Shown here piece by piece: positions 43,903-48,044 of a stretch of 64,000 nt of DNA. Made by a program: the position numbers and the translations under genes. The stretch spans positions 62,001 through 126,000 of the forward strand of contig CAKZYA010000003.1 in assembly GCA_937883755.1 (NCBI GenBank), given 5' to 3'. Positions within the stretch are counted from its first letter, which is position 1; every line of letters starts with the position of its first letter. The notes beneath the pieces were generated by a model. That model was not told the DNA's origin. It saw nothing but the letters and a program-made list of their open reading frames with translations, and did no database searches. The stretch is from an uncultured Flammeovirgaceae bacterium (GTDB lineage: Bacteria; Bacteroidota; Bacteroidia; Cytophagales; Cyclobacteriaceae).

Positions 43903-44532
43903 ATGAAGATATTAGAAAAGAAACGGGTAGATTCACTAGCTAAAACGTTCCGGTATACGCTAAGAGATCGGCGTAAATTAGTGAGCCTAATTATTGTATT
44001 ACTACTTCCCCTGATGCTTTTTGCGTGGAGGTTTATTCCTGAAGATATTGAGTTTCCTTACTATGGACAACTGCATGTGTTCATTTGGACATTTAATCTA
44101 TATTTTGTCATAGTTATGCTATCGTCGGCTTGGTTTCTATCCATACCTCGAAGAGACTTTGCTATGCAAATAATTGTTCTGGCAGCTTTATTCTTAGGAA
44201 TCTCCTTAACACTTAATACTTTGCCATTTAGTAATGAGTCGCCGTGGTGGACCGATGTATTAATCAGCTTAACTTTGTTTGCAGGAGCGAGTATTTATCT
44301 CTATTACGTCTACAATAATTACGTTAACAAAACTATTGACTACAAACAGTTGCACGACGGTATTGTGCATGATTTGCACCATGAGCGCTTTTTAAACTCC
44401 ATTAGTCGGGTAGAAGGGTTAATGAAGGTAGCTGAGATGGAAGAGCCTTACAAAAGTATGTGTGAAGATGAAATTGCCGAGCTTAAAGAATCAGTATCCT
44501 ACATCGCCGAGAAATATAAAGCTCTTTATTAA
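43903..44532 (+). CDS. Unrecognised membrane protein with a C-terminal helical tail
   Basis: Family not recognised. A basic start (residues 1-27) is followed by about four membrane helices: near 28-44 (LVSLIIVLLLPLMLFAW), 57-80, 86-103 and 118-137. The cytoplasmic tail of about 65 residues reads LHDGIVHDLHHERFLNSISR and continues with an acidic helix to KYKALY. The histidine-rich start of this helix superficially resembles the phospho-acceptor helix of histidine kinases, but no ATPase domain follows. It is a single gene after an A/T-rich region, convergent with the ABC transporter gene. Confidence 0.7.
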   Translation: MKILEKKRVDSLAKTFRYTLRDRRKLVSLIIVLLLPLMLFAWRFIPEDIEFPYYGQLHVFIWTFNLYFVIVMLSSAWFLSIPRRDFAMQIIVLAALFLGISLTLNTLPFSNESPWWTDVLISLTLFAGASIYLYYVYNNYVNKTIDYKQLHDGIVHDLHHERFLNSISRVEGLMKVAEMEEPYKSMCEDEIAELKESVSYIAEKYKALY

Positions 44533-44652
44533 TGACGAATGACTAATGAATTGGATAAGGTGCGTATGTAAGCCTCCGATTCAATACCTACACATACGTG
44601 TAACAATGCGCCAGCTAACATTAATCATTATTCATCACTCATCGATCATTAT
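44529..44652. repeat. Intergenic inverted-repeat region (ATGA-rich family), site 2
   Basis: The left side (TTAATGACGAATGACTAATG, about 44529-44548) and right side (ATTAATCATTATTCATCACT and on to 44652) are imperfect complements and reach the stop codons of the two convergent genes: TAA of the membrane protein at 44530-44532 and TGA of the ABC gene at 44639-44641. The right arm therefore encodes the last residues (YNDR) of the ABC protein. Confidence 0.55.
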
Positions 44653-46210
44653 AAAGGTGTTCCTTCAAATCAGAGATGCTTTCTATTTTTAACTTCTTAG
44701 CTTGTAGTTCTCTCATCATCAACGCGGTGGTATTGTTAAAACCCAACGGGGGCATCCAGATTAAGCCATACTGCTGCTGTACTTGGTTTTGAACATAATT
44801 ATATACCCAATCTTTATTCTGAGATAAACTGTCTATTGCTTCTGAAGACGGTTTTAGCAGAACTAGTAAAACAGTTCCTGTATATTCGGGGTAAATGTCT
44901 ACGTAGTCATTGATGATGGCATCCATCAGTAGTTTGGTGCCACCGAAGCCCTGCTTAAGTTCTACGGTTAAATTGGTTTGCCCTTCAATGAGCAGGGTGA
45001 ATAGTTCGGCAAGAACAAAGTTTTCGGTGAAAGCCTTAGAGCCGATAATCAGGTCAGGCTTGCCCTCTTTTTTGGCTACGGTTGTAAACCCTAGAGAGTT
45101 TAAGAAGTTAGTGGCTGCTTCCCGGGGCGAGCGCTTGTTTTGGTCTACCTCAAGGTTCATCTGGGTCATAGCAGTTTCATCAATCTTACCACTTAATTGC
45201 TGAAAAAGTGGTTCTAACTCAGGAAAGCGAGCGATAGTTTCTTGACGGATTAATGGGGCAGCGTAGTAAGGAGGAAAGTAGCCCAAGTCATCTTCTAATA
45301 CCCGCAGATTATAGGCAGCAATTCGTCCGTCAGTAGAGAAACCGCTGATAACATCTACTTTTTTCTGATGGAGTGCTTCGTACATCAGCCCAATCTCCAT
45401 TTCGCGGGCTTCTATTGAAAAACCGTACTTTTCCTGCAAGCCCGGATAACCGTCGGCTCGCTCCATAAATTCCGAATTAAATCCGGCTACCAATGATGAA
45501 GTGCTTTCTGATGCTTCAGACCAGACTACCTGCCCGATAAGTACTAAACATAAAATAGCAAATCCTACCGCTAACGGTTTCAAAAGCTTTTGGATGTATC
45601 GTTGAATCAGGCTGAGTAAAGTGTCCAATACAATCGCTAATAGCGAAGCGGGAATAGCTCCTGCTAGAATCATGTAGGTATTGTTCACAGCAATCCCCCG
45701 GAAAATAAATTCGCCTAAACCACCGGCGGCAATCAGGGCGCAGAGGGTAGCTACGCCAATGTTGATGACCATGGCGGTGCGCACTCCGGCAAAAATAATC
45801 GGGGCAGCCAGCGGCAATTCTACCATTCGTAAAATTTGTCCGTCGGTCATGCCCATACCCAGAGCTGCTTCCTTAATAGTCCCATCCACTCCCTGAATAC
45901 CCGTGTAAGTATTACGGACAATGGGCAGTAGGGCGTACAAAAACAAGGCGATAATCGCCGGAAGTACTCCAATGCCGAAAAAGGGTAACATAAAACCCAG
46001 CAGCGCAATACTAGGGATGGTCTGGATAATATTGACAAAGCCTAGCATAGGTTGGGCAGCAGTTTCGTAGCGAGTTAGCAGGATACCAATGGTAATACCG
46101 ATGACGGTGGCGACTACCAAGGCTATGGTAGTGATCCAGAGATGTTCGTAGGTTTGCTGAAGAATTTCGGCACGTTGCTCAATCAGAAATGAGAAAAACT
46201 CAGCAAGCAA
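44639..46210 (-). CDS. ABC permease fused to a glycine-betaine/choline-type binding domain in permuted order
   Basis: Osmoprotectant (OpuC/OsmF/ProWX-type) ABC transporter protein. Residues 1-205 form a permease domain with the EAA-type loop KEAALGMGMTDGQILRMVELP. A last helix is at about 211-230. Then comes the part that normally ends the binding protein: LVAGFNSEFMERADGYPGL, GFSTDGRIAAYNLRVLEDD and FPPYYAAPLIR to ATNFLNSLGF. Only after that comes the part that normally begins it: DLIIGSKAFTENFVLAELF, DIYPEYTGT, LGFNNTTALMM and ISDL, where the protein ends. The binding domain thus looks circularly permuted. No ATPase gene is beside it. Confidence 0.88.
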   Translation of the reverse strand: MLAEFFSFLIEQRAEILQQTYEHLWITTIALVVATVIGITIGILLTRYETAAQPMLGFVNIIQTIPSIALLGFMLPFFGIGVLPAIIALFLYALLPIVRNTYTGIQGVDGTIKEAALGMGMTDGQILRMVELPLAAPIIFAGVRTAMVINIGVATLCALIAAGGLGEFIFRGIAVNNTYMILAGAIPASLLAIVLDTLLSLIQRYIQKLLKPLAVGFAILCLVLIGQVVWSEASESTSSLVAGFNSEFMERADGYPGLQEKYGFSIEAREMEIGLMYEALHQKKVDVISGFSTDGRIAAYNLRVLEDDLGYFPPYYAAPLIRQETIARFPELEPLFQQLSGKIDETAMTQMNLEVDQNKRSPREAATNFLNSLGFTTVAKKEGKPDLIIGSKAFTENFVLAELFTLLIEGQTNLTVELKQGFGGTKLLMDAIINDYVDIYPEYTGTVLLVLLKPSSEAIDSLSQNKDWVYNYVQNQVQQQYGLIWMPPLGFNNTTALMMRELQAKKLKIESISDLKEHLYNDR

Positions 46211-47225: not shown

Positions 47226-48044
47226 CTAAATGTAGGGTGAAATATTGGGAGCCTGTGGCCAATTTCCCTCAATCGATAGGGGAGTAAATTCAGCAAATAG
47301 TTCTTCTCGATACCATCCTAAGATTCTAGTTTTCTTGATCATCTCTCGGTGTTTGGCACTCTGATAGGCATAAGCTACCATCGCATCACGATTTTTCCAT
47401 AGGCTGAACGTGGCCTGTTGTAGTAACGGAAGCTCGCCAATACCTTTGGAAAATAGCAAGCCTGCCTGATGTTGTTCTAAGCGATTACTGACCTTAGGTA
47501 CGTTCTTCCAAAAACTCCATAGCTTCTGAGGATAAATGGTAGCTCGGGTTAAGACAGCGATGGGGCCTTGAGATACTTTCACTTTGTGAACGGGAAACGG
47601 TTGTTTAGCCTCCCAGGAGCCTTTTACTTTTGTAGTGCAAAGAGAAACTGTCCAATGATGTTGGGCATAAGCACACGCCTGATGCCAAAATGAATTCTGT
47701 TGGAAGAAATTTTTAGCAATAGTCTGTTTATCCCACACTGCTAGAAAAGCATAGGTGCTCATATCAGGAATAATACTGAACCCATTACCACCACCGCTTC
47801 CGAGAAGTTTGTAGAAGCCAAGACCGGGTATTGACCGAAGTATGCGATGGGAATCTCGCATTTGGCGTAAAGCCCACCATTTAGCGGATAATCTCTCAAA
47901 TTCTAGGAAAGTTATTGTAGTAATTTGCTGATTTAGATACGCCAATAGAATATTGCTTAAAAAAAAGAGAGACGCAATGAAACAACGCCATCTACGAACA
48001 TGATTGAAGGCGAACTGTTTAAAACGTGCTAAGTGTTTGCTCAA
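47226..48044 (-). CDS. Spheroidene monooxygenase (CrtA)-like protein
   Basis: CrtA-family oxygenase; characterised members oxidise acyclic carotenoids to ketocarotenoids. Conserved blocks: [66 protein letters not shown] and [15 protein letters not shown]. The first 40 residues, with one hydrophobic stretch, do not look like the family; homology begins near [15 protein letters not shown], so a non-ATG start such as the TTG near 47943 is possible. From ATG 48044 it overlaps rocD by 26 bases. No other carotenoid gene is in the window. Confidence 0.8.

Follow-up and report, generated by a model that had tools for sequence, protein, structure and literature searches.

A conserved permease fusion with a circularly permuted type II binding domain in Bacteroidota

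The window, i.e. the whole stretch of 64,000 nucleotides from an uncultured Flammeovirgaceae bacterium that was analyzed, encodes a fusion protein in which a permease (P) is followed by the second half (B) and then by the first half (A) of a type II binding domain. The P-B-A order is real and conserved, and amounts to a familiar machine with its parts rearranged, not to a new one. Very probably, the protein provides both the membrane part and the binding part of a type I importer in the OpuC/EgtU/OsmF group of ABC transporters (binding-protein subcluster F-III), and its binding domain is a genuine circular permutant that most likely works.

The fusion gene and its segments

The features of the gene are summarized in Table 1. 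The protein matches the permease profile PF00528 (BPD_transp_1) with 74.1 bits against a curated cut-off of 26.4, and PF04069 (OpuAC, subcluster F-III) with 174.5 bits against a cut-off of 21.2 (E value of 4.2e-51 for the protein). The latter profile is split in two, with its second part matched at residues 233-371 and its first part C-terminal of that. A phmmer search of the PDB returned the same swap relative to EgtUC, where residues 239-375 align with the second half and residues 384-517 with the first. Pfam and phmmer thus agree with the initial annotation, which had described a fusion of a permease and a binding domain with the second half before the first, and, judged from these matches, the swapped order is far beyond chance. 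The window protein does not share the canonical A-B order of EgtUC, OpuCC and AfProX, and its score for the OsmF family (NF049931, 113.1 bits) lies below the equivalog cut-off of 400. The new C-terminus is found in segment A, just past the ISDL motif. The frame that is open upstream of the start codon (46208-46210) contains no ATG, and L033-L035 present TTG at the matching place.

Table 1 Features of the P-B-A fusion gene in the window. Residues are numbered along the fusion protein.
Feature	Position	Strand	Basis
Whole P-B-A fusion gene	44639..46210	-	523 aa, TTG start, single uninterrupted frame
P: BPD_transp_1 permease core, residues 14-208	45587..46171	-	Pfam PF00528, residues 38-210, 1.5e-20
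Putative extra transmembrane helix, residues 209-230, anchoring the binding domain	45521..45586	-	Hydropathy peak centred at 214-226; model helix 206-230
Short flexible linker, residues 231-239	45494..45520	-	pLDDT < 50 at 230-238; spacing of 9-11 residues in 36/36 rows
B: second half of the binding domain, residues 240-372	45095..45493	-	PF04069 positions 108-256; EgtUC 138-274; ligand residues E247, R251, F291, Y315
Joint of the old C- and N-termini, residues 373-386	45053..45094	-	Length and sequence variable
A: first half of the binding domain, residues 387-523	44642..45052	-	PF04069 positions 2-111; EgtUC 5-134; ligand residues K392, Y443, T446, N493

Conservation of the P-B-A order

The three segments were sorted by BLAST in 71 loci, three of which are the window's own. 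The P-B-A order was found in 38 distinct loci of Cytophagales, other Bacteroidota and Fodinibius (Balneolota). Among these, L006 and L047 are identical, L012 is interrupted by a stop codon in frame and L051 is truncated where its contig ends; the alignment used below leaves out L006 (duplicate) and L012 (stop) and thus holds 36 rows, in which the 35 relatives are 47-84% identical to the window protein. All 38 proteins terminate 2-10 residues past ISDL or a variant of it. The circular permutation that had been proposed for the type II binding domain is supported, with homologues of the same order in hand. The mean majority-residue fraction over the 36 rows is 0.73 in the permease core and 0.63-0.64 in the two halves, against 0.37 in the joint, where the spacing varies between 14 and 21 residues.

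The same parts are also found in other orders, namely A-B-P in 15 fused loci of other Bacteroidota (L018-L032) and P-A-B in three fusions of Acidobacteria. In a draw of 296 genomes from the phylum, 15 genomes, counting the window's own, showed a single collinear match over the full length and 23 others had the A-B-P order, among the matches listed. It should be noted that 15 of these 23 were read as loci and eight from coordinates, and that for G239 the first half is absent among the matches listed. No genome of this draw contained both P-B-A and A-B-P among the matches listed. Within the order, 40 of 194 genomes matched at 1e-40, and one collinear full-length match was present in 35 of the 194, again including the window's own; of the other five matches, two were broken into overlapping pieces, one ran into a contig end, one had the A-B-P order and one was a partial copy interrupted by six in-frame stops. 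A partial B-A domain of 39% identity (G397:C29:78826-79662, minus strand) carries five TGA and one TAG codons in frame and is either a decayed copy or something else. In other phyla, seven plasmid-borne relatives (out of 1079 matching records) are canonical, fused or not, and five records or genomes that were searched whole revealed only the canonical order. On the Synechocystis plasmid pSYLB (L098:1474-3015), a P-A-B fusion has no ATPase among the genes annotated in its 1.5 kb flanks. In the window's clade, the fusion gene lies behind a purine nucleoside phosphorylase gene, and L033-L036 have the same upstream neighbour.

Ligand site and inferred function

Out of ten EgtUC ligand positions, the window protein keeps six (K392, T446, N493, E247, R251 and Y315), has a different aromatic at two (Y443 for F and F291 for Y) and departs from EgtUC at the remaining two (F394 for G244 and T495 for Y341). 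Across all 36 rows, K392, Y443, T446, N493, E247, R251 and Y315 are invariant, while position 291 is F or Y and position 394 is F in 34 rows and Q in two. Position 495 is the most varied (F in 14 rows, Y in 13, T in five, H in three and S in one), and the rows with T all belong to the window's own clade. The carboxylate contacts of EgtUC (K242, T296 and R379) are present as K392, T446 and R251, each in 36 of 36 rows. The cage of EgtUC, made of four aromatics and an Asn (F293, Y341, Y419, Y443 and N339), corresponds to Y443, T495, F291, Y315 and N493 in the window protein, with three of the four aromatics. This residue set fits a carboxylated quaternary amine, such as glycine betaine, carnitine or a similar betaine, as the most likely substrate, and ATP-driven import is most likely the function of the system. 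As T495 takes the place of a cage aromatic, the ligand of the window protein itself may differ. Ergothioneine specificity of the EgtU type was considered and is not supported: the excerpted text of PMC9732360 gives G244 and a Y-to-F switch, which we assume here to be F293, as its marks, and the window protein has F394 and Y443 instead.

The probable ATPase partner

An ABC ATPase gene, recognized by its Walker A and signature motifs, lies immediately upstream of the fusion in 30 of the 38 P-B-A loci. For the remaining loci, the contig begins at the fusion gene in L051, the ATPase is found about 9 kb upstream on the same contig in L038 and L043, and it is located on another contig in the window's clade (the window's own locus and L033-L036). 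In Fulvivirga kasyanovii (L103:2287-11421), about 9 kb of mostly opposite-strand genes stand between the ATPase and the P-B-A gene, as if an operon had been split. An ATPase adjoins two of the 15 A-B-P loci, a count that is not informative because the flanks mostly end before the upstream gene is complete. The statement that no ATPase gene is adjacent is accurate within the window; that the ATPase is missing is not upheld, given its position in most relatives and a clear candidate on another contig of the window's genome. A missing or non-ABC partner is rejected on the same grounds.

The candidate is an ATPase of 324 amino acids on contig C9 (L084:5703-6677, minus strand), which scores 278.9 bits, against 131.4 for the next of the 63 matches in the genome. 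Its best NCBIfam family is TIGR01186 proV with 290.5 bits, below the cut-off of 326.6, and the ATPase that adjoins the fusion in L037 also remains below this cut-off (273.1). The window's genome contains two BPD_transp_1 permeases in all and one OpuAC-family locus; since there is only one other such permease, the C9 ATPase is likely to pair with the fusion.

With the ATPase gene no longer in the operon and one cage aromatic replaced, the protein of the window's own clade might be regarded as a degenerate relic that no longer transports. The separation of the ATPase in the window's genome and in L033-L036, as well as T495, would fit such decay. We consider this quite unlikely, as the reading frame is full-length, is 83-84% identical to L034 and L033 and keeps the seven invariant ligand residues, and as a closely similar ATPase, 53-81% identical to that of the window's genome, is kept in five of five clade genomes (in one of the five as two pieces on two contigs).

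Origin of the permuted order

The rearranged order is not unique to the fusion, as B. subtilis OpuAC also has B before A. In a phmmer comparison of this protein with L. lactis OpuA, query residues 169-269 align with 3-102 and residues 11-161 with 104-255, a half swap that makes OpuAC the B-A form and L. lactis OpuA the A-B form, with the cut after SIEDL. The cut after SIEDL/ISDL is common to OpuAC and the P-B-A family. OpuAC and L. lactis OpuA superpose at 0.98 Å according to passages of PMC2861598, so that the permutation of OpuAC leaves fold and site intact; the words "permut" and "swap" are absent from the text of that paper. Circular permutation among glycine betaine-binding proteins (2b4l, 1r9l and 1sw1) is listed in the 2008 CPSARST work, as excerpted from PMC2395249. 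The topology as such is already known from OpuAC. A search of the open-access literature by titles and abstract openings found neither a permease fused to a permuted OpuAC-type domain nor any paper on the combination of a fused permease, the EgtU/OsmF branch and a second use of this loop.

For the domain tree, all 78 rows were put in canonical order. The P-B-A proteins form one clade (98/96), while OpuAC clusters with L. lactis OpuA and 3tmg (100/100). The order thus changes twice on this tree, and a single clade of the P-B-A proteins and B. subtilis OpuAC is rejected with a p-AU of 1.45e-31, although the OpuA branch is divergent and the topology test therefore leans on the alignment. In a permease tree calculated by a quick method, P-B-A and A-B-P together form one clade (97), in which P-B-A is not one clade: the order changes twice, and A-B-P is placed beside 11 P-B-A rows with a support of 84. 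On the domain tree, the P-B-A and OpuAC permutations are separate events that do not share a common descent, and the order most likely arose once in the P-B-A family, independently of OpuAC.

The shared cut after SIEDL/ISDL would also be expected if B-A were the ancestral order, retained by B. subtilis OpuAC and the P-B-A family, with the canonical A-B members permuted again. This is distinctly unlikely, since the nearest solved sequences of both permutants are canonical (L. lactis OpuA for OpuAC and EgtUC for the P-B-A family), and since the tree of 78 rows requires two changes and rejects the joint clade. Returning to an independent origin, P-B-A does not result from rotating the whole of P-A-B; a tandem duplication of the binding domain or gene (P-A-B-A-B), followed by loss of the first A and the last B, would yield it directly and is the most likely route. 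In Desulforhopalus vacuolatus (L056:6637-8664), two near-identical binding-protein genes stand in tandem right behind a permease gene, which indicates that the required duplication does occur. Among the loci examined, such an intermediate was seen only outside Bacteroidota.

Predicted fold and position of the cut

Structures were predicted by AlphaFold2 from 24 P-B-A rows only. The best of five full-length models has a pLDDT of 83.0 (70.4-80.5 for the others), with low values at residues 230-238, while the binding domain alone is predicted at a pLDDT of 91.8 and a pTM of 0.87 as one compact domain with two lobes. Both lobes are thus predicted to form, as had been supposed, and two incomplete, unrelated half domains are rejected on the basis of the model. 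When the domain alone was searched by Foldseek (best 50 of 677 matches with E <= 0.001), the top five matches were all B. subtilis OpuAC, covering 292-299 columns at a TMt of 0.62-0.64, although the superposition is loose (rmsd 5.4-5.6). Among the same 50 matches, EgtUC, OpuBC, OpuCC-type and sensor domains align over only 133-146 columns even though they are 35-40% identical. AfProX (3mam) is an exception that is long and poor (319 columns, rmsd 8.1, TMt 0.39); in the search with the full-length model, EgtUC (7txk_B), 6v1r and 3mam likewise align over 323-324 columns at an rmsd of 7.6-8.3. As the main pattern in these predicted models, closer relatives that fit well only by half are the signature of a permuted domain. 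The top Foldseek matches of the full-length model are L. lactis OpuA; this protein was therefore considered as a possible P-B-A member and rejected, since phmmer shows its binding domain to be canonical.

As both halves would hang on a homodimer and the joint is variable, B of one protomer could in principle pair with A of the other within the permease dimer. We regard such pairing in trans as highly improbable, given that a chain modelled singly forms one compact domain (pTM 0.87) and that closure within the chain looks easy with a joint of 14-21 residues and both old termini in lobe 1. There is virtually no chance that the order stems from an ordinary permease-SBP fusion disrupted by misassembly or by a recent rearrangement of the locus, a reading for which the lack of an ATPase beside the fusion in the window and the TTG start might speak: the identical order with a shared end in 38 loci from many assemblies, the collinear matches within the order, the purine nucleoside phosphorylase gene upstream also in L033-L036 and the seven invariant ligand residues rule it out, and homologues are not confined to the normal order.

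The break had been placed exactly where the chain crosses between the lobes, and in this respect the annotation has to be corrected. The excerpted text of PMC9732360 assigns EgtUC residues 232-331 and 445-503 to D1 and 341-432 to D2, with N339 and Y341 in the interdomain linkers. These two residues map to N493 and T495, so that the crossing corresponds to NNT (residues 492-495) and the cut past ISDL falls some 20 residues beyond it, within lobe 2. For L. lactis OpuA, a passage of PMC2861598 names Lys404 as a hinge residue, and chain position 421 is the last of the equivalent SIEDL, which agrees with a cut beyond the hinge if chain positions equal residue numbers. The new termini are thus in lobe 2 and the old termini both in lobe 1, joined by the variable stretch, and, by the published EgtUC lobe boundaries as excerpted, the tether from the permease goes into lobe 2 and not into lobe 1. 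The change thus lies in the point of attachment; the ligand site might, as the initial annotation supposed, also be placed differently relative to the membrane.

In the transporter that we envisage, two copies of the fusion would form the permease dimer, and five core helices and the anchor helix would put the domain in the periplasm on a linker of about ten residues. Packed together, B and A would make up the usual two-lobed flytrap, which would shut around a carboxylated quaternary amine. The domain would then dock on the dimer, perhaps in the manner of other type I importers apart from the tether, while uptake would be powered by a ProV-type ATPase whose gene lies elsewhere in the window's genome.

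It is possible, though we hold it as a tentative and rather doubtful suggestion, that the lobe-2 loop is a recurrent permutation site in the superfamily and that membrane-anchored binding domains have made use of it on at least two occasions because the tether is thereby shifted from lobe 1 to lobe 2, with the tether position itself under selection. If this were so, the moved tether would alter the docking, opening or twin pairing of the domain on the dimer, and Bacteroidota would provide a natural comparison of P-B-A and A-B-P (with P-A-B elsewhere) made of the same parts.

Comparison with known systems

B. subtilis OpuAC (PDB 2b4l and 2b4m) resembles the fusion in B-A order, in the loop that is cut and in the full-length Foldseek match. 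It is likewise membrane-anchored, being described as a lipoprotein in PMC6207618 and as N-terminally lipidated in PMC2861598 (both as excerpted). However, it is a separate, unfused lipoprotein of 12-14% identity with a Trp-type site and lies on another branch of the tree. The closest solved sequences, with 38-40% identity in B among the best 50 of 677 Foldseek matches, are fusions of the EgtU/OpuF type (EgtUC, PDB 9o5f and 7txl), which are permease-fused and share the ligand position set of the window protein (for OpuF, as far as the excerpted source describes it). EgtU differs in its canonical A-B order and in G244, where the P-B-A family has F (34 of 36) or Q (two of 36).

L. lactis OpuA (OpuABC, PDB 7ahd and 7ahh) shows the same succession of permease, anchor helix, short linker and SBD, with a linker of 11 residues in the excerpt of PMC11065425, while its SBD is canonical A-B with a Trp-prism site. 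Its partner ATPase is described in the excerpted literature as having CBS domains, whereas Pfam found none in the three ATPases scanned here. The A-B-P fusions consist of the same parts, with a permease 45-57% identical to that of the window, but carry the domain in front and in canonical order. Treponema TpMglB-2 is likewise a natural circularly permuted binding protein, for which the authors named tethering as a possible reason for the permutation; it differs in its type I/cluster B sugar-binding fold, in another cut and in being unfused (all as excerpted from PMC4990184).

Natural permutants whose close relatives are well studied and unpermuted offer a way to learn how chain order matters to a binding protein. 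The present importer family comes in three fused orders (P-A-B, A-B-P and P-B-A), and OpuAC arrived independently at the same cut, so that the effect of the tether point is directly testable by comparing orthologues. In practical terms, profile searches split the P-B-A proteins in two and can mislabel them. The solved relatives of the domain include several published fluorescent sensors, for which the natural permutation site may be of use.

Neighbouring genes in the window

Two neighbours of the fusion gene were also noted. The gene at 47226-48044 (minus strand) lies between those for ornithine aminotransferase and purine nucleoside phosphorylase; its product is similar to spheroidene monooxygenase CrtA (NF045923, 210.5 bits for a cut-off of 300), yet matches nothing in Pfam at 1e-3. 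The gene at 43903-44532 (plus strand), which is convergent to the fusion, encodes a protein of 209 amino acids, with no match at 1e-3 in Pfam or NCBIfam, which is kept beside the fusion in L033 (80%) and L035 (60%).
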